Counted from the stretch's first letter, positions 99 through 6,931 are shown. The stretch: 6,931 nucleotides of DNA from a bacterium (GCA_035528375.1 DATKYS010000142.1:1-6931), one strand, 5' to 3'. Program-made: numbers and translations. Notes: generated by a model from the letters alone, not told the origin.

Positions 99-126
99 GC
101 GGCGGGGAAAGGATTCCCCGCCCTAC
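99..126 (-). repeat. Palindromic repeat B, short form without insert
   Basis: Read on the minus strand, this is the hairpin GTAGGGCGGGGAA followed directly by TCCTTTCCCCGCCGC. The same two arms bound the 56-base copies at 4653-4708 and 4760-4815, where 28 extra bases sit between them. This copy therefore equals the long form with an exact internal 28-base deletion, or the form before an insertion. Confidence 0.85.
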
Positions 127-149
127 GTTACATATCGGTCGTCAACCTC

Positions 150-176
150 GTAGGGGCCGACCTTCAGATCGGCCCG
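150..176 (+). repeat. Palindromic repeat D-type (short core)
   Basis: The unit starts GTAGGGGCCGACC. It forms a 7-bp hairpin, GGGCCGA (154-160) with TCGGCCC (169-175), and continues into CGCGG. A decayed version of the same core occurs at 4566-4590. There is no T tract, so no terminator role is evident. Confidence 0.65.
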
Positions 177-180
177 CGGC

Positions 181-220
181 CCCCTCTCCCCGTGGGAGAG
201 GGATTAGGGGTGAGGGCTAC
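181..220 (+). repeat. Palindromic repeat E, copy 1
   Basis: The hairpin CCCTCTCCC / GGGAGAGGG is followed by an unpaired tail ending GGGTGAGGGCTAC. The copy at 6893-6931 differs by three bases in 39, and 4881-4913 is an inverted copy. Repeats of this general sequence type are common between genes in many unrelated bacterial genomes. Confidence 0.8.
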
Positions 221-225
221 CATTG

Positions 226-266
226 AAAAAACGGGCCGACCTGAACGGCGCGCCGTCGGTCGGCCC
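226..266 (-). terminator. Intrinsic terminator of prfA, formed by a repeat D copy
   Basis: On the minus strand, GGGCCGACC pairs with GGTCGGCCC (arms at 258-266 and 233-241). Between them sits the palindrome ACGGCGCGCCGT (245-256). The hairpin is followed by G and then six T (complement of 226-231). It lies about 60 bases past the prfA stop codon, in the right orientation to end that transcript. The repeat body, 233-280, is 47/48 identical to the inverted copy at 4816-4863. Confidence 0.75.
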
Positions 267-325
267 CTACATCATCGCAAACCGCTCGGCCCAGGTCGGT
301 TATTTACAACAGGTAAACGCCGGGC

Positions 326-1396
326 TCACGCGCCCGACTTCGCCAGGCGCTCCTCCCGGTCGTGGATGACGAGCGCCTCGATGACCCCCTCCAGCTCCCC
401 CTCCATCACCCGGTCCAGGGAATAGAGCGTGAGGCCCACGCGGTGGTCGGTGAGCCGGTTCTGGGGAAAGTTGTAGGTGCGGATGCGCTCGCTCCTATCT
501 CCGGTACCGACCATGAGGCGTCTCTCGGCGTCGCGCTCGGCGTCGGCCTCCCGGCGCTGGAGGTCGTAGAGCCGCGCCGCCAACACCCGTAGCGCCTTGG
601 CCTTGTTCTTGTGCTGAGATTTCTCGTCCTGGCAGCTCACCGTGAGCCCCGTGGGCAGGTGGGTGAGGCGCACGGCGGAGTCGGTGGTGTTGACCGACTG
701 CCCCCCCGGCCCCGAGGAGCGGAAGACGTCCACCCGCAGGTCCTCGGGCTTGATGTTGACCTCGACCACCTCGGCCTCGGGCAGGACGGCCACGGAGACG
801 GCCGAGGTGTGGATGCGCCCCGCCGATTCGGTGACCGGCACCCGCTGGACGCGGTGGACGCCGCCCTCGAACTTCAGCCGTCCGTAGGCCCCCTTGCCCT
901 CCACGGCGAAGGTTATTTCGCGGTAGCCGCCGACCTCGGTGGGGTTGGAGTCCATGACTTCAATCTTCCAGCCCCGGCGCTCGGCGTAGCGGGAGTACAG
1001 GCGGAAGAGGTCGCCGGCGAAGAGGGAGGCCTCGTCGCCGCCGGTCCCGGCGCGGATTTCCACGATGGCCTTGCGCTCCTCCGCCTCGTCCTTGGGCAGG
1101 AGGAGGATCTTGATCCTCTCCTCCAGCTCCGCCAGCTCTTCCCGCAGCCCGTCGAGCTCCGTTTCGGCCAGCTCCACCAGCTCGGGATCCTCGTCGGCGG
1201 AGATGACGCCCTCGTCATCGGCAATCTGCCGGACGAGGTCGCTGTAGCGGGGGTATAGGTCGGCGATGGGCTGTAGCTGGGCCTGCTCGCGGCCGAGTTG
1301 GGCCGCCCGGCGGCGGTCGGAGTACACGTGCGGGTCGGCGAGCTCTTTGGAGAGCTCGTCGTAGCGCGCCATGAGCCTGTCGAGTTTTTCGAGCAT
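326..1396 (-). CDS. prfA: Peptide chain release factor 1 (RF1)
   Basis: Cytoplasmic class I release factor that reads UAA and UAG in the ribosomal A site and triggers hydrolysis of peptidyl-tRNA. Counting from the chosen ATG at 1396 (356 aa, the normal RF1 length), the tripeptide anticodon motif is PVT at residues 187-189, the PxT form that marks RF1 rather than the SPF of RF2. The universal GGQ is at 231-233, within [16 protein letters not shown]. The N-terminal helical domain begins [15 protein letters not shown], as is usual for RF1. An in-frame TTG at 1408 would add four residues, but it has no ribosome binding site and the family start matches the ATG. The usual partner gene prmC, whose product methylates the GGQ glutamine, is not adjacent: the gene is followed by repeats and a terminator. 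Confidence 0.97.
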
Positions 1397-1419
1397 AGTA
1401 TTATCCAAGCAAGTTTACG

Positions 1420-1446
1420 AAAAACAGGGGCCAATAACCCCTGCTT
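1420..1446 (-). terminator. Intrinsic terminator after the small-gene pair
   Basis: On the minus strand, CAGGGG (1438-1443) and CCCCTG (1425-1430) pair across a 7-base loop and run straight into TTTTT (1420-1424). Flanking AAAG bases extend the stem into the T tract. It lies just past the stop of the 71-aa gene and only about 25 bases before the prfA start codon. Confidence 0.8.
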
Positions 1447-1467
1447 TATCTCAAAAAGCGGAGTATG

Positions 1468-1683
1468 TCATAAATTATCAGCGGTTCGGCGACGCAACTC
1501 TTTCTCATCTGGGGTTATACCACGGTCTATATACTCATATTTATACAGTTGTGTCTGAATTTTAGCCGTTTCAGCCAAGTCTTTAGTAGCTTTAGCGGTT
1601 TTAGAGGCGGCACGTGCCGAAAATACGGCGGCGACAGCAGCACATATTGCAGTGGCTAGACCAAGCCAATCCGCAAATTCCAT
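1468..1683 (-). CDS. Small hypothetical membrane protein (71 aa)
   Basis: I do not recognise this gene. Residues about 6-25 (WLGLATAICAAVAAVFSA) form one likely membrane segment. A positively charged, Ala/Lys-rich helix follows (residues 26-46, probably amphipathic), then a charged C-terminal tail. The ATG lies two bases after the stop of the upstream 82-aa gene. A GAGAG sequence about 9 bases before the ATG can serve as its ribosome binding site, so the two genes are probably co-transcribed and coupled. The base composition is clearly more AT-rich than the flanking genes, which suggests recent acquisition. It ends shortly before a strong terminator. Single-span proteins with an Ala/Lys-rich helix like this are widespread hypotheticals in accessory regions; no function can be assigned. 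Confidence 0.65.
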   Translation of the reverse strand: MEFADWLGLATAICAAVAAVFSARAASKTAKATKDLAETAKIQTQLYKYEYIDRGITPDEKELRRRTADNL

Positions 1684-1685
1684 GA

Positions 1686-1934
1686 TTACTTGCTCTCAGT
1701 ATTCTTCAGAATATCTTTCGAAAGTTTTTCGAAGAAATCAGCCAAATCCTTCCGGCCTTCGGCATCAAGGTCCGGGTTATACATCACGAAGAAAGCCACC
1801 TTCCCATCATCCGTCCCTTTGTAGGCAAAGAACGTACCGGTGAGGGTTAAATCCAATCCGGGAACGAACGACTGTTCACCGTGCGGATTGATAATCACTG
1901 AGCTTACTAGATGTTCACGTGTTTTCGTGGACAT
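1686..1934 (-). CDS. Small hypothetical protein (82 aa)
   Basis: I do not recognise this gene. It has no signal peptide or membrane segment and is probably cytoplasmic. Residues about 10-50 alternate hydrophobic and polar in a way that suggests beta strands (SSVIINPHGEQSF, LTLTGTFFAYKG, KVAFFVMYNP). The C-terminal third is a charged helix (GRKDLADFFEKLSKDILKN). The ATG at 1934 is preceded by AAGGTGAAGG at a suitable distance, a good ribosome binding site. Codon use is AT-richer than in neighbouring genes. Two promoter-like sequences lie upstream (1974-2004 and 2042-2050). It is the first gene of a two-gene unit with the small membrane protein downstream. The pairing of a soluble and a membrane peptide invites a toxin/antitoxin or defence idea, but nothing in the sequence shows this. 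Confidence 0.65.
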   Translation of the reverse strand: MSTKTREHLVSSVIINPHGEQSFVPGLDLTLTGTFFAYKGTDDGKVAFFVMYNPDLDAEGRKDLADFFEKLSKDILKNTESK

Positions 1935-1973
1935 GGTTCCTTCACCTTTCCATCCAGTTTAATTCTTAAAAGG

Positions 1974-2004
1974 AGTATAGCATAGATTTATCTGTATTGA
2001 ACAA
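1974..2004 (-). promoter_or_regulatory. Sigma70-type promoter for the small-gene pair
   Basis: On the minus strand the -10 is TATACT (1974-1979) with an upstream TGC, making an extended -10. TTGTTC (1999-2004) is 19 bases upstream and TTCAAT (1996-2001) is 16 bases upstream; either could act as a -35. The start codon is about 40 bases downstream. Confidence 0.6.
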
Positions 2005-2041
2005 AATTCAAAAGTGTGAAGAACGTAAAGATTGCAGGGCG

Positions 2042-2050
2042 ATTATACCA
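2042..2050 (-). promoter_or_regulatory. Extended -10 promoter candidate
   Basis: On the minus strand this reads TGGTATAAT, a perfect -10 with the TGn extension. No good -35 is present (CTTCCG or TCTTCC at that distance). It sits between the lipoprotein operon and the small-gene pair and would give the latter a leader of about 100 bases. Confidence 0.4.
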
Positions 2051-2077
2051 CCCCGCGCCCCCTCGGAAGATTTTTCG

Positions 2078-2797
2078 CTAATAGAACCGGAACGCCACGC
2101 CCAGGGTGTAGGTGCCCTTGAGGGTAGGCGGGTTCTCGTCCAGGAGCGCCGCCTCGACCCGGCCGTTCGCCTCGGGGTGGTCGGCGTACTCGTCGCCGGG
2201 CTCCATGAGATGCCACAAGTCCTCCAGCTTCAGGCGGGCTCGGGAGTCCGCGGGCTGGTACTCCACGCCGGTGAAGGCGCCGTCCACCACGGCGACCAGG
2301 AGCGCCCCCCAGCCGGTGACGGCCAGCGCCCGGTCTGTGACGACCTCGTCCCAGGCCTCGCGCACGGCGGGTCCCCGGCCGCGCAGGTACTGCGCCGCGG
2401 CGTAGAGCTCCCGTTCGTCCACGTACCACTCGCAGGATTCTATCCAGGCCACCGCCCCGGGGTCGTGGACTTGCTCGGGCTCGAACCAGGGGACCTGTTC
2501 CTCGAAGTGCGGGTGGTCCTCGATTAGCGAGCGGACGAATCCCACGTACCCGGGGTCGGCCCCGGCGAAGGGCGACAGAATCACCATGTACGGGTCCGCG
2601 GCGTACACTATGCGCCCGGCGTCCCAGAGGCAACCCCCCGGCGCGCTATCCACCAGACCGGAGTGGCTGACCACGAGGTCCAGGCCGTAGTCCGGCCCGC
2701 CGATATAGAAGGTGAGGTGGGTGAGGGTGCAGGCGGTGAGCGTCAGCGCCAGCGCGGCGACCACAATCCCGGCTAAAACGGTGAGAACTCGGCGCAT
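2078..2797 (-). CDS. Predicted lipoprotein, paralogue of the upstream gene (239 aa)
   Basis: I do not recognise the family. A lipoprotein signal peptide is visible: MRR, a hydrophobic stretch, then the lipobox LTAC with Cys23, so the mature protein is probably lipid-anchored in the envelope. The mature part is a paralogue of the protein encoded just upstream. Shared blocks, in order, are GGPDYGLDLV (33-42), PGGCLW (53-58), VHDPGAVAW (110-118), QYLR (136-139), a DRALAVTGWGAL block (155-166) continuing to EYQP, DEYADHPEANG (202-212) and TLGVAF (231-236). No catalytic signature is evident. The ATG lies 12 bases after the upstream stop, and AGGGG overlapping that stop, 8 bases before the ATG, is the ribosome binding site. 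It is the last gene of a three-gene operon. No terminator was found directly after it. Confidence 0.8.
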   Translation of the reverse strand: MRRVLTVLAGIVVAALALTLTACTLTHLTFYIGGPDYGLDLVVSHSGLVDSAPGGCLWDAGRIVYAADPYMVILSPFAGADPGYVGFVRSLIEDHPHFEEQVPWFEPEQVHDPGAVAWIESCEWYVDERELYAAAQYLRGRGPAVREAWDEVVTDRALAVTGWGALLVAVVDGAFTGVEYQPADSRARLKLEDLWHLMEPGDEYADHPEANGRVEAALLDENPPTLKGTYTLGVAFRFY

Positions 2798-2809
2798 CGC
2801 CTGTACCCC

Positions 2810-3511
2810 TTACTCGAACTTGACCGCGTAGCCCAGGGTGAAGGTGCCCTCCACGATGGGCGAGATACCGTCGGCCGTGAGCCACTCGGCGATGCCGTTC
2901 GCCTCGGGGTGGTCGCTGTACTCCTCATCGGGGCCGATGACGCCCCACTCCCGGAGCTGTGAGTTCGGGGAGTAGTCGTAGGGCTGGTACTCGGCGCCCG
3001 TCAGCGTCCCGTCCTCGATTTCCACGAAGAGCGCGCCCCAGCCGGTGAGCGCCAGTCCACGGTCGGAGACGAAGCCCAGCCAGCCCTCCCGGACGAGCCC
3101 CGCCTTGGCGCGCAGGTACTGGGCCATCCGCAGGATGCTCTCGGGAGATATGGCGGGCTCGGCCCGCACCACCCAGACCACGGCGCCGGGGTCGTGGACC
3201 GCCTCCAGCTCCACCGCCTCCATCGTCTCGTAGATATCGCCGAACTCGGTCAGGCGGGACTCGGCGGCCGAAATCACCTCCGCGTCGGCGTGGGGCAGGG
3301 GAATCAAGAGTATCTCGTTGCAGCAGCCCTCGAAGGGGATGAACTCCCGCGTCCACAGTACCCCGCCGGGCCAGCCGCAGACGAACTTGCCGTCGCGGTA
3401 GACGAGGTCCAGCCCCGAGTCCGGGCCGCCGACGTACACCTCGTACTCGTCGGCCAGAATCGCGGCGGGGAGGACGAGAAGGACGATGAAAAGGGCCAAC
3501 CGGACGTGCAT
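2810..3511 (-). CDS. Exported protein of unknown function, paralogue of the downstream gene (233 aa)
   Basis: I do not recognise the family. A cleavable signal peptide is predicted (residues 1-20, ending AAILA before DEYEV). There is no lipobox cysteine, so unlike its paralogue it is probably soluble in the periplasm or secreted. The conserved blocks are GGPDSGLDLV (28-37), PGGVLW (48-53), VHDPGAVVW (105-113), QYLR (131-134), REGW (141-144), TGWGAL (156-161), DHPEANG (200-206) and TLGYAV (225-230). It carries cysteines at 45, 63 and 64. The downstream paralogue lacks the adjacent pair; its only mature cysteines besides the lipobox one are at 56 and 122. The ATG at 3511 has AGGAG four bases upstream. 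Spacing to both neighbours is 12-15 bases, consistent with one operon. The two genes clearly arose by tandem duplication and have diverged strongly. Confidence 0.8.
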   Translation of the reverse strand: MHVRLALFIVLLVLPAAILADEYEVYVGGPDSGLDLVYRDGKFVCGWPGGVLWTREFIPFEGCCNEILLIPLPHADAEVISAAESRLTEFGDIYETMEAVELEAVHDPGAVVWVVRAEPAISPESILRMAQYLRAKAGLVREGWLGFVSDRGLALTGWGALFVEIEDGTLTGAEYQPYDYSPNSQLREWGVIGPDEEYSDHPEANGIAEWLTADGISPIVEGTFTLGYAVKFE

Positions 3512-3526
3512 ATAACTCCTCGAAGG

Positions 3527-4147
3527 TCAGGGAATCGCCGAGCGCGACTCCTCGGATTGCGCCATGCGGTCGGGGGCGGTCTCCCCGGGTTTCTCCTCCT
3601 CGACGGGCGGCGGGGGAATCTCCGGCAGCGGCCGCAGTTCCCGGGAACCGGCGGTGAGGAACCCGGCCCCCTCCCCGCGGCGCAGGTACAGGTGGACGCG
3701 GAAGACGTCGCGCCCGGAAGAAGGCCAGTCCCACTCCTGCATCCGGGAGAGCATCTGCGTCGCCAGCGCCTCGTCGCCGGTGGTGTTGTCCTCCAGCGAG
3801 AGGAAGAGGAGCACCCCGGACTCGGTGGTCAGGTTGGCGGTGATGATCCCGGAGGAGAGGGGGTCGGCGTGGAGCCTGGCGGCGTGGATGCCTGTCAGCT
3901 CGGCGGCGTGCTCCTGCATCAGGCGGTCCACGCCCGTGAGCATCTGGGGGCTCATCCCGCCGTGGGTGCGCAGGGGCTCGATTTCCCAGACGATGGGCCG
4001 GGCGCGGACCTCGTCGGCGGGCGGCGCCGACTCCGGCCCCGGGACCTCGAAGCGCAGCTCGGGGAGGAAGCTCACCGGCTCCGAGGGGCCGCCCTCGCAG
4101 GAGAGGCTCAGGGCGGCGGCGAACAGAAGCGGCGGGAGAAGTCTCAT
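3527..4147 (-). CDS. Exported protein with AgmX/PglI (TonB-like) C-terminal domain
   Basis: An exported or membrane-anchored protein of 206 aa from the ATG at 4147. The N-terminus, [20 protein letters not shown], is a signal sequence or anchor. Cys17 suggests a lipoprotein, but the preceding residues (SLS) are not a standard lipobox. A Pro-rich stretch follows (21-60). Residues about 63-158 fit the AgmX/PglI-type TonB-like C-terminal domain pattern: GG, then a V..H.....I.AA.L..DPLSSG block, a strand pair around a turn ([11 protein letters not shown]), TTGDEAL, and [17 protein letters not shown]. The C-terminus is a Pro/Glu-rich tail (172-206). It is the first gene of the three-gene operon and is served by the promoter at 4179-4208. 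In-frame ATGs at 4168 and 4240 are possible, but the promoter position and signal sequence favour 4147. The domain call is by pattern only. Confidence 0.7.
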
Positions 4148-4178
4148 GGTCGGGGGCCAATCCCCCATGTGGAAGCCT

Positions 4179-4208
4179 ATTGTATAATCACGCAGTGACG
4201 GCTGACAA
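4179..4208 (-). promoter_or_regulatory. Sigma70-type promoter of the three-gene exported operon
   Basis: On the minus strand, TTGTCA (4203-4208, five of six consensus bases) and TACAAT (4179-4184, five of six) are separated by 18 bases. Transcription would start near 4172, leaving about 25 bases before the ATG at 4147. It overlaps a plus-strand TATAAT. Confidence 0.6.
4183..4188 (+). promoter_or_regulatory. -10 element for yidD, overlapping the divergent promoter
   Basis: A perfect TATAAT on the plus strand, within ATTGTATAAT (4179-4188). The complementary strand of this segment reads ATTATACAAT, so the segment is nearly symmetric and offers a -10 to both strands. No good plus-strand -35 is visible. 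Transcription would begin near 4195. Confidence 0.45.
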
Positions 4209-4476
4209 TCCCAAAAATTCCAGCGTGTTACCGCCGCCAAACACGGAGGTCCCCACCCTGCGGAGGGTGCTCATCGCGCCTTTCGTCGGGGTGATTTGGC
4301 TCTACCGGCGTTTCATCTCGCCGCTCTTCCCACCCACGTGCCGCTTCGAACCCACCTGCAGCGAGTACGCCGTGCTGGCACTGAGGAAATACGGACTGTT
4401 GAAGGGGCTGGGGAAGGCGATCTGGCGGGTGCTGCGGTGCAACCCGTGGGGGGGATCGGGCTACGACCCGCCGTGA
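4195..4476 (+). CDS. yidD: Membrane protein insertion efficiency factor YidD
   Basis: Small inner-membrane-associated protein of the YidD family, which aids insertion of membrane proteins by the Sec/YidC machinery. The family core is complete: [20 protein letters not shown] (amphipathic N-terminal helix), then the cysteine motif [11 protein letters not shown], then [21 protein letters not shown] and the ending [11 protein letters not shown]. The start is uncertain. No ATG is present. Candidates are TTG 4180 (98 aa, GGAAG four bases upstream), GTG 4195 (93 aa, at the predicted transcription start) and GTG 4225 (83 aa, closest to typical family length). If the TATAAT at 4183 is real, TTG 4180 is excluded. 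In many bacteria yidD sits between rnpA and yidC. Here it stands alone, divergent from the exported operon and followed by a terminator. Confidence 0.92.
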
Positions 4477-4503
4477 GCCGGCACTTTGCATACGCGGGGC
4501 GGG

Positions 4504-4524
4504 GGCGGGGCGTCCCGTTTTTTT
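4504..4524 (+). terminator. Intrinsic terminator after yidD
   Basis: CGGG (4506-4509) and CCCG (4514-4517) pair across GCGT and are followed at once by seven T (4518-4524), with G-T pairs extending the stem base. The stem is short but GC-only. It lies about 30 bases past the yidD stop codon. Confidence 0.55.
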
Positions 4525-4565
4525 CGTTCAATTCACGCCGGGCACGCTCCGTGGTTTGCGACGAC

Positions 4566-4628
4566 GTAGGGGCCGACCTTTAGGCCCGCGGGCGACCGTG
4601 GAGGACTCGTCCTACCGGTCGCCCCTAC
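4566..4628 (+). repeat. Composite palindromic repeat (D-like fusion)
   Basis: The left part (GTAGGGGCCGACC...GGCCCGCGG, 4566-4590) resembles the short core at 150-176 with bases lost. It runs into a second hairpin, GGGCGACCG (4590-4598) with CGGTCGCCC (4616-4624), which holds a nested inverted repeat, AGGAC / GTCCT (4602-4613). It ends CCCCTAC like the other units. It looks like two units fused. Confidence 0.65.
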
Positions 4629-4652
4629 GTCAAATCGTCATTGTCCATAAAT

Positions 4653-4708
4653 GTAGGGCGGGGAACCGAGCGAAGCGAGCTATGCGAAGCAAATCCTTTC
4701 CCCGCCGC
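4653..4708 (+). repeat. Palindromic repeat B, long form, copy 1
   Basis: A 56-base unit matching 4760-4815 at 55 of 56 positions. The outer arms GTAGGGCGGGGAA and TCCTTTCCCCGCCGC form a hairpin. The 28-base interior carries two GCGAAGC heptamers (4670-4676 and 4684-4690). The copy at 99-126 lacks this interior exactly. Confidence 0.9.
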
Positions 4709-4718
4709 TTTGTTAATC

Positions 4719-4748
4719 GCGGCGGCCCGCAGAGGGGCCGCCCTACAT
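4719..4748 (+). repeat. Palindromic repeat C, copy 2
   Basis: Identical over 30 bases to 41-70, with the hairpin GGCGGCCC / GGGCCGCC and the end CCCTACAT. It is sandwiched between the two long B copies. Confidence 0.85.
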
Positions 4749-4759
4749 CTTAGGTATTC

Positions 4760-4815
4760 GTAGGGCGGAGAACCGAGCGAAGCGAGCTATGCGAAGCAAA
4801 TCCTTTCCCCGCCGC
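4760..4815 (+). repeat. Palindromic repeat B, long form, copy 2
   Basis: It differs from 4653-4708 by a single G-to-A change at its tenth base (4769). The GCGAAGC heptamers are at 4777-4783 and 4791-4797. It abuts the next repeat (4816) with no spacer. Confidence 0.9.
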
Positions 4816-4870
4816 TTGCGATGACGTAGGGGCCGACCGACGGCGCGCCGTTCAGGTCGGCCCTTTTTTT
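4816..4870 (+). terminator. Repeat D copy 2 with T tract (intrinsic terminator)
   Basis: Inverted copy of 233-280, matching 47 of 48 bases. GGGCCGACC (4830-4838) pairs with GGTCGGCCC (4855-4863) around a central GGCGCGCC palindrome, and seven T follow (4864-4870). It is oriented to stop plus-strand transcription coming from yidD through the repeat cluster. Confidence 0.7.
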
Positions 4871-4880
4871 AATAAGGCAG

Positions 4881-4930
4881 CCCTCACCCTAACCCTCTCC
4901 CACAGGGAGAGGGAAACTGCGGGCCGCCGC
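4881..4930 (-). repeat. Repeat E inverted copy plus a fragment of repeat C
   Basis: On the minus strand, 4881-4913 reads CCCTCTCCC TGT GGGAGAGGG followed by TTAGGGTGAGGG, as in 6893-6931. Next to it, GCGGGCCGCCGC (4919-4930) is the reverse complement of the first 12 bases of repeat C. A further CCCTCACCCC is at 4951-4960. No T tract follows the E hairpin, so a role as terminator for the kinase gene is not supported. Confidence 0.7.
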
Positions 4931-4967: not shown

Positions 4968-6614
4968 CTAATCTCCACCGCCGCCCATCAGGATGTCCTC
5001 GGCCTGCTCGATGTCCATGAGCTCGCCGACCTCGGCGGGCGGCTTGGATGTGCTGTCGGCGCCGGCGATGATGGTCACCACCCTGTCCTTGGGCACGTAG
5101 AACTCGCGGCTTATGAGCCCGCCCTGGGTGGCCACCTTCAGCTTGTGCTCGCCCGACAGGAGCTGGAGCCTGCCCTTGGGCAGCTTGCCGATGTAGATAT
5201 CGTCAATCCAGACGTCGGCGCCCTCCGGGCCCACCAGGTTCAGCCAGCCGTAGGTGGACACGTTGAGCTCCACCTCGAAGGAGACGATGTCGCCCTCGCC
5301 GGGGGTGAACTCGGTTTCCAGGGTGTTGTACTCGTACTTCTCGAAGCGGAGTGTGTAGGACCGGCCGCGCTGGAGGCGGGTCTTCAGGGGGGTGTTGCCG
5401 AAGCGGCGGTCGTTGATAAAGACGGTGGCCTCGGTCGGGCGGCTGATGATGTTTATGATGACCTCGTTCTCGGCCACGGTGTACTCCGACCCGGCAATGA
5501 TCTGGTTCTCGTCCCCCTCGTTGTTCTGCAGCTCGAACCAGTTGATGGTGGCGATGGTCCCCCAGACGAGGGCGCCGAGCCCCAGCGCGCCCAGGAAAAT
5601 CCCCACCACGAGCCGCTTCCGGTAGCGCCACTTCTCCCCCGGGCCCAGAACCTCCTTTTCCCCCCGCAGCCGCCGGTCCTTCTCCTCGGCGTAGATGACG
5701 CGCAGGCCCGCGTCCATCTCGTTCGCCAGCTCCGAGGTCGTCTGGTAGCGATCCTCCGGGTTCTTCTCCAGGCACTTGAGCATTATCTTCTCGAGCCACT
5801 CGGGGATGTCCGAGTTGAGCATCCGGGGCGGGATGGGCGGCTCGTTTATCTGCTTGAAGGCGACGGCTATCTTCTTGTCGGCGGTGAAGGGCAGGCGCCG
5901 GGTGAAGAGCTTGTACATGAGGATGCCCATGGAGTAGATGTCGGAGCGGGCGTCCACGTTGTGCCCCTGGCACTGCTCCGGGCTCATGTACTCCGGCGTG
6001 CCGATGGCCGTGTTCTCCTGGATGGCGGCCGTCTTGGCGATGCCGAAGTCCAGAAGGGTGACGTGGCCGTCGGATCCGATGAGCACGTTGCCCGGCTTCA
6101 CGTCGCAGTGGACCACCCCCCGCGAGTGGGCGAACCCGAGCGCCCGGACGAGCTGGATGACGTACTGAAGGCCGTCCTTGGTGGAGACGGCCGATTTGGC
6201 GATCAGGTGCTCCAGGCTCTCGCCCGCGAGGAGGTTCATCACGAAGTAGCTGCGCCCGGCGTCGGTGCCCACGTCGTGGATCATGACGATGTTGGGGTGC
6301 TCGAGCTCGGCGGCGCGGTGGGCCTCGGCCAGGAACCGCTCGGCGTACCCCGGACGCTGGGAAAGCCGCGAGGGCAGGACCTTGACGGCCACGTTGCGCT
6401 TCAGGTTCTCGTCGTAGGCCTCGTAGACGATGCCCATCCCGCCGATGCCGATCCGCCGGCGGATTTTGTACTTGCCGATGTACTCGGGGATTCCGTCGGC
6501 GTCGAGCTTCTCCATGGGCGACGTCTGGATCTGCACCTGCGCGATGGGCTGGCCGCAGTTGTGGCAGAAGTCCGCGTTCTCGTCCACCCGGGAGCCGCAG
6601 TGGAAGCAGTACAT
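4968..6614 (-). CDS. Zinc-ribbon Ser/Thr protein kinase with PEGA-like domains
   Basis: Hanks-type protein kinase of 548 aa, anchored by one membrane span. From the ATG at 6614, a zinc ribbon comes first with Cys3, Cys6, Cys17 and Cys20 (CFHCG...FCHNCG). The kinase domain (about 48-300) shows the glycine loop GIGGMGIVYEA, Lys78 in VAVK, Glu97 in helix C, the catalytic loop HCDVKPGNVL (Asp171, Asn176), DFG (189-191) and GTPEYMSPE (205-213). Cys replaces the usual Arg of HRD, making it a non-RD kinase. A membrane span follows (about 335-357). Outside are two PEGA-like modules (about 384-449 and 453-518; RPTEATVFINDRRFGNTPLK and GADVWIDDIYIGKLPKG). The C-terminus is acidic and ends GGGGD. GTG 6620 is an alternative start, but GGAG five bases before the ATG decides for 6614. 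It is transcribed alone; no phosphatase or substrate gene is adjacent. Confidence 0.95.
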   Translation of the reverse strand: MYCFHCGSRVDENADFCHNCGQPIAQVQIQTSPMEKLDADGIPEYIGKYKIRRRIGIGGMGIVYEAYDENLKRNVAVKVLPSRLSQRPGYAERFLAEAHRAAELEHPNIVMIHDVGTDAGRSYFVMNLLAGESLEHLIAKSAVSTKDGLQYVIQLVRALGFAHSRGVVHCDVKPGNVLIGSDGHVTLLDFGIAKTAAIQENTAIGTPEYMSPEQCQGHNVDARSDIYSMGILMYKLFTRRLPFTADKKIAVAFKQINEPPIPPRMLNSDIPEWLEKIMLKCLEKNPEDRYQTTSELANEMDAGLRVIYAEEKDRRLRGEKEVLGPGEKWRYRKRLVVGIFLGALGLGALVWGTIATINWFELQNNEGDENQIIAGSEYTVAENEVIINIISRPTEATVFINDRRFGNTPLKTRLQRGRSYTLRFEKYEYNTLETEFTPGEGDIVSFEVELNVSTYGWLNLVGPEGADVWIDDIYIGKLPKGRLQLLSGEHKLKVATQGGLISREFYVPKDRVVTIIAGADSTSKPPAEVGELMDIEQAEDILMGGGGD

Positions 6615-6643
6615 CCACACTCCGAAGAAGGCGAATCAAACTG

Positions 6644-6780: not shown

Positions 6781-6806
6781 GTAGGGCCGACCGTCCACGG
6801 TCGCCC
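6781..6806 (+). repeat. Palindromic repeat D-type (degenerate)
   Basis: It starts GTAGGGCCGACCG. CGACCG (6788-6793) pairs with CGGTCG (6798-6803) across TCCA, with GGG / CCC flanking beyond a one-base bulge. It is related in border and arm sequence to the copies at 150-176 and 4566-4628. Confidence 0.6.
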
Positions 6807-6833
6807 GCATCCGCAGTTGCCGGACGTAGCTTC

Positions 6834-6931
6834 CCCCTCTCCCTTTAAGGGAGAGGCTCGCCGACGGGCTAGGGTGAGGGGTGGGGCGGTTTCCCTCTCC
6901 CTGTGGGAGAGGGACTAAGGGTGAGGGCTAC
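6834..6931 (+). repeat. Two tandem copies of repeat E
   Basis: The first copy (6834-6881) has CCCTCTCCC / GGGAGAGG with an altered middle and the tail CTAGGGTGAGGGG. The second (6893-6931) has the perfect CCCTCTCCC TGT GGGAGAGGG hairpin and the tail ending GGGTGAGGGCTAC. The window ends exactly at CTAC, so the element may continue. No coding sequence is supported in 6673-6931. Confidence 0.75.

Follow-up and report, generated by a model that had tools for sequence, protein, structure and literature searches.

A dispersed unit of 28 or 30 nucleotides, probably a very small mobile element, at hairpin tips and in genes of a Coatesbacteria lineage

Small dispersed repeats (SDRs) of cyanobacteria were reportedly characterised by Elhai et al. 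in 2008 as 'very small mobile repeated elements'. One account gives them as about 20 bp long, dispersed, also tandem and thought to be mobile (PMC2884548), and another describes SDR5 as inserting precisely inside the palindrome HIP1 (PMC4390886). The GC clusters or double-hairpin elements of fungal (yeast) mitochondria are short hairpins with AG flanks, a 2-base putative target duplication, which merge and shuffle and for which no encoded enzyme is known (PMC4478555). Rickettsia palindromic elements (RPEs) provide a case of one element lying in frame within unrelated genes (PMC10969869), and the insertion sequences IS1397, IS621 and ISKpn1 insert at a fixed point inside REPs (PMC1525189). Cyanobacteria and mitochondria have both been suspected of harbouring very small mobile repeats, and the question is how 20-40 nt are recognised and moved. 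Here we describe a bacterial unit of 28 or 30 nt that works like the SDRs and GC clusters, to which it is likened by behaviour and not by sequence.

The unit resembles the SDRs in its length, within 20-30 nt, in its many dispersed copies and in its presence or absence at orthologous sites; the SDRs, however, belong to the cyanobacterial phylum, whereas the units target AA-containing REP loop tips and genes and have a covarying hairpin and an AA repeat. With the mitochondrial double-hairpin elements the unit has in common a pair of hairpins and a direct repeat of 2 bases, whereas GC42 measures 42 nt, with flanks of AG or ACT, and the unit is bacterial and flanked by AA. Like an RPE, it lies in frame in several genes (RecG, FtsI, RsmG and LeuD), but RPEs are palindromic and about 150 bp long, against 28-30 nt, or 10 residues, for each unit. 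IS1397, IS621 and ISKpn1 differ in being gene-carrying transposons, the unit having 28-30 nt and no gene. The hairpins that host the unit have the hallmarks of GTAG REPs (GTAG at the stem foot, many copies and a RAYT neighbour) and, as in the REP/REPIN/RAYT (TnpA-REP) system, are GTAG-tagged palindromes beside Y1 genes, whereas the insert is non-palindromic and lacks a conserved GTAG, so that it was not classed as a GTAG REP. Classification as an IS200/IS605 element was likewise rejected, the insert being 28-30 nt long and gene-free and the Y1 genes few and located elsewhere.

The window (the whole stretch of DNA analysed, 6,931 nt) is contig C142 of a 2.63-Mb genome in 144 contigs, hereafter G000, whose repeats are shared with Candidatus Coatesbacteria RBG_13_66_14 and CSMAG_1439, which places the window in the Coatesbacteria lineage. 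Four genomes of the genus were available in all (G000, its sisters G001 and G002, and a third congener, G003), and every genome in the set is a draft MAG. The repeats of the window are intergenic (Table 1). According to the original prediction, repeat B (REP-B) exists with and without an exact 28-base insert that carries GCGAAGC twice, and both statements were borne out. The two filled copies differ by 1 mismatch in 56 bases, and their arms are identical to those of the empty copy or differ from them by one mismatch. A gapped search of G000 for GTAGGGCGGGGAA-N(0-30)-TCCTTTCCCCGCC gave 13 matches, 10 with a spacer of 0 and 3 with a spacer of 28 (one of the three inserts with one base changed), and no spacer of any other length in this range; the reversed-pattern control gave no match in the same genome, which also contains additional long copies with slightly altered arms. 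The expectation of two spacer lengths, 0 or 28, thus held for G000 but not for the genus, where the set is 0, 28 or an array of units, a longer array being present at one REP-B tip in G002.

Table 1. Coordinates of repeats, units and genes in the window.
Feature	Position	Strand	Basis or remark
REP-B hairpin, empty form, GTAGGGCGGGGA^ATCCTTTCCCCGCCGC	99..126	minus	insertion point at junction 115/114
Release factor gene	326-1408	minus	Pfam
YidD gene	4180-4476		Pfam
REP-B hairpin, filled, copy 1	4653..4708	plus	GTAG end, arms, 28-nt unit at tip
28-nt mobile unit 1 (candidate), ACCGAGCGAAGCGAGCTATGCGAAGCAA	4665..4692	plus	
Core of unit 1, CCGAG..GCA	4666-4691		AA at 4664-4665 and 4692-4693
GCGAAGC mini-hairpin 1 of unit 1	4670..4676	plus	within CGAGC-GAA-GCGAG (4667-4679)
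GCGAAGC mini-hairpin 2 of unit 1	4684..4690	plus	YGCC-NNN-GGCR in the 30-nt form
REP-B hairpin, filled, copy 2	4760..4815	plus	one base differs from copy 1
28-nt mobile unit 2 (candidate)	4772..4799	plus	AA on each side
GCGAAGC mini-hairpin 1 of unit 2	4777..4783	plus	sequence
GCGAAGC mini-hairpin 2 of unit 2	4791..4797	plus	sequence
PEGA-domain protein kinase gene	4968-6620	minus	Pfam

The insert is not peculiar to repeat B, since further REP loops, a second palindrome and several genes also contain the 28-nt or 30-nt unit, which is found in arrays as well; a search of G000 with the 28-mer gave 10 matches at ≤3 mismatches, part of them outside repeat B. The insert belongs to a dispersed family of 28/30-nt units, ACCGAGCGNAGCGAGCTAY.., with a core of 26 or 28 nt (28 or 30 nt including the AA). 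The core search of G000 returned mostly the 30-nt form, in which TGCGAAGCA is exchanged for YGCC-NNN-GGCR. With a covariance model, 73 units were found in G000, at least about 160 and 139 in the two sister genomes, high counts that are uncertain and may be too low, and 9 in G003; of eleven more distant relatives, ten had none and the eleventh had one weak match. In a set of 85 thousand species genomes, exact matches to the 20-nt core were confined to two other Coatesbacteria genomes and one Chloroflexi-binned contig, and a search of viral contigs for the core found none. The Chloroflexi-binned contig (L100; MGMR01000092.1, 'Chloroflexi bacterium RBG_13_51_18') holds two unit matches and is mostly 60-70% GC. 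This is lineage-like, while the genome name suggests about 51% GC; misbinning is therefore suspected, and transfer of the unit to Chloroflexi was set aside in favour of probable misbinned Coatesbacteria DNA.

Units are over-represented at palindrome tips, namely those of GTAG-type REPs and of the CAAGGGGTTTAAACCCCTTG palindrome, an enrichment that would be inflated by any self-copying of filled REPs; since spread of an already filled REP could account for some of them, the tip copies are not all independent. The empty REP tips, GGCGGGGA..TCCCCGCC, have the loops TTTTAA, TAGGAA, TGGGAA, TTAAAA and, in REP-B, AATCCT, all with filled counterparts, and in each of these five loop types the unit lies between AA and AA and its removal restores the exact empty sequence. 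Excision of the unit in silico likewise yields the exact empty sequence of the second palindrome, of which 8 copies were empty in the stretches examined and many were full, with one to several units. AA is found on each side of nearly every well-kept unit, and the unit boundaries are constant across unrelated hosts. The strand that bears AATC sets the orientation of the unit, so that both orientations relative to GTAG occur, and in G000 17 of the 83 tips with AATC were filled, as against 0 of 25 without it (Fisher one-sided 0.007). At 59 other sites, the flank preference was A^A, then A/C/T, then C; about 44,000 AAHC sites are estimated genome-wide for G000 from the loci retrieved. A second type of insert, of 17-18 nt with the consensus TATCTGCGRCCGAAGGY, was observed at the same REP tips (G000:C17, C20, C60, C92, C100 and C140; G002:C29).

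Full and empty sites were found at orthologous loci. An exact, in-frame 30-nt unit interrupts recG of G002 (CCGGAA[unit]AAAAAAACC versus CCGGAAAAAGACC in G001) and is absent from G000 and G001, which have the empty site, and from the more distant G004, G005, G007 and G008. The ftsI-type gene is free of units in G003 and G005, whereas G001 and G002 each have one there and G000 has two; rsmG, likewise free of them in G003, has a single unit in each of G000 and G002 and an 81-nt array in G001. Both leuD and the tip of the GACAAGGGGTTTAAACCCCTTGTC palindrome are empty in G000; in G002 the former has one unit near its start and the latter two units, and a variant unit is present at that tip in G001. 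Because the outgroups lack the unit, insertion is the derived state. The insert lengths in the four genes (RecG, FtsI, RsmG and LeuD) are all multiples of three, as expected from selection, and a unit adds 10 residues, PSEASYASGK, TERSELRPRR or NRAKRAMPLA according to frame; conserved genes are entered in frame, and core proteins gain insertions of 10 residues from this source. It is a dispersed, precisely inserting, derived unit, located between AA dinucleotides at a site of the A^A(A/T/C)C type, and it forms arrays. In these, units are joined end to end and head to tail without spacers, and internal sub-units of 9 nt and 21 nt were seen. The arrays were not assigned to CRISPR, in which unique spacers separate the repeats.

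Both tandem G-A pairs and GNA loops as a class are stable. Short DNA hairpins of the GCGAAGC kind are described as extraordinarily stable (PMC10527192). In hairpin 2 (YGCC..GGCR), the outermost pair of distinct aligned units was T-A in 26, C-G in 19, T-G in 3 and unpaired in 0, with a covariation score reached by 0 of 500 shuffles; as this signal comes from one dominant column pair and two subfamilies, it is not to be counted as 19 events. Hairpin 1 (CGAGC-GNA-GCGAG) has no covariation of its own; the middle base of its loop is A, T or C, and the neighbouring bases are mostly conserved. In the second insert type (TATCTGCG-RCC-GAA-GGY), the stem varies among the G000 tips as GCC/GGC, ACC/GGT and CCC/GGG. 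The DNA fold energy of the bare unit was no better than that of shuffles, as computed with standard DNA energy parameters, which may miss tandem G-A pairs and GNA loops. The proposal that the heptamers form mini-hairpins gains some support from GCGNAGC, whose middle base varies beside mostly kept neighbours, and from the CC-GAA-GG stems of the second insert, which change as pairs.

It seems to be the insert that is mobile, and not that it serves repeat B as an internal signal; that the module moves by precise insertion we regard as very likely. Our main reading, to which we assign a probability of roughly two in three, is that the insert represents a single copy of a mobile element of very small size, which moves as a single strand and is served in trans by an AA-cutting host or REP-associated enzyme. 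The unit would move as single-stranded DNA folded into two mini-hairpins and would be cut and joined at AA. A unit already in place ends in AA and would itself be a target, which would account for the arrays, and REP tips would be favoured because of their single-strand exposure in hairpins or cruciforms. Some filled REPs, including the long form of repeat B, may have spread as composites through REP mobility. As to the enzyme, the original prediction had pointed to a Y1 transposase gene, and one of the RAYT type is indeed present in G000, at C91:11737-12207; there are three in G001, one short gene in G002 and two in G003. RAYT genes adjoin GTAG REPs, and one adjoins a unit-filled REP. Our tentative first guess at the mobilising enzyme, at less than even odds, is a Y1 (HUH) transposase, for instance the resident RAYT. 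Against it, TnpA-REP requires GTAG (PMC8266576), most units have none (ATAG stands on that strand, and GTAG occurs only on the complementary strand of the C-variant), and G003 has two RAYT-type genes yet only 9 units. No RVT_1 reverse transcriptase was found in the four genomes of the genus, which makes a route through an RNA copy unlikely.

The AA repeated at the ends of the unit would also be expected from processes other than single-strand cutting by such an enzyme. In enzyme-free template switching, an AA-ended nascent strand would jump to a unit elsewhere, copy it, stall at the mini-hairpins and return at AA; the AA at both ends would then be a 2-nt microhomology at each switch point. The arrays and the 9-nt and 21-nt sub-units point to frequent slippage, and no reverse transcriptase or dedicated gene is linked to the unit. 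Two-base homology alone, however, should scatter the end points, whereas the boundaries are the same in unrelated hosts, the flanks show a preference that goes further than AA, and no tip lacking AATC is filled. Constant ends together with the A^A(A/T/C)C preference at 59 sites speak for an enzyme rather than for plain template switching, and the latter we consider unlikely. A 2-base repeat flanking the unit would equally suit a 2-bp-core recombinase or a REP-targeting IS enzyme (IS110/IS621-like or IS3/IS1397-like) that places the unit in REP tips in trans, and IS621 and IS1397 do insert specifically into REPs (PMC1525189), but none of the loci read shows an element of this kind linked to the units, and a double-stranded circle of 28 bp would be physically implausible; this route seems to us distinctly improbable.

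Two further explanations dispense with a currently mobile unit or reverse the direction of the change. If the unit were immobile and a single founder insertion in repeat B had been followed only by composite REP copying or REP gene conversion, the shared insertion point and shared 28-nt variant of the long REP-B copies in two species would follow. At least five types of REP loop, however, have the unit, in both orientations to GTAG, and an unrelated palindrome contains it, as do RecG, FtsI, RsmG and LeuD, so that a founder insertion with composite copying may explain the REP-B subset but is very improbable for the family. Clean boundaries are also what precise loss from an ancestral long form would leave, but the outgroups lack the unit at RecG (G004, G005, G007 and G008) and at FtsI (G003 and G005), and almost all of the family is found within a single genus; excision as the origin of the short form has hardly any probability left. 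Of the routes originally offered for the presence or absence of the insert (targeted insertion, excision or slippage), insertion is therefore the one upheld, by the orthologous full and empty sites and the matched tips. Slippage across a cruciform is disfavoured, because the same unit enters unrelated sequences, genes included, and the empty outgroups contradict the idea that excision was the main direction.

An extension of the single-strand reading, which we put forward as a conjecture at less than even odds, is that the 26-28-nt single-stranded double mini-hairpin would be all that an AA-cutting recombinase, either dedicated or co-opted, needs to recognise in order to join it into tips and genes. 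At least one sister module (17-18 nt, with a CC-GAA-GG hairpin) would make use of these tips too and end similarly at its 3' side, and such units would be among the smallest mobile modules recognised as such. The unit is far smaller than ordinary transposons, yet it leaves clean full and empty sites. As its ends, target, empty sites, orientation and structural constraint are defined to the base, the mechanism is testable with short oligonucleotides and a few candidate enzymes.

Related modules, AACGAAGTAACGCGAAGCGAA (repeated in L103) and AACGAAGCGAAGCGAGTTAYGCC..GCRAA, were seen at L103:3227-3290, L083, L040:2342, L054:1566 and L096:1001, and suggest a wider range of unit subfamilies. An Rfam search of the window gave no match. 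Two ORFs of 239 and 233 aa, in tandem and apparently paralogous, lie on the minus strand of the window at 2078-2797 and 2810-3511, neither with a Pfam match. Palindromes of the GTAGGGGCCGACC..GGTCGGCCC type occur in the window at 149-177, 226-285, 4565-4597, 4811-4870 and 6781-6808, and palindromes resembling this type flank the Y1 gene of G000 on both sides (L168:1462 and 2049). A third repeat family of the window, at 182-203, 4893-4914 and 6893-6914, consists of CCCTCTCCC..GGGAGAGGG palindromes with 'agggtgagggctac'-type tails.
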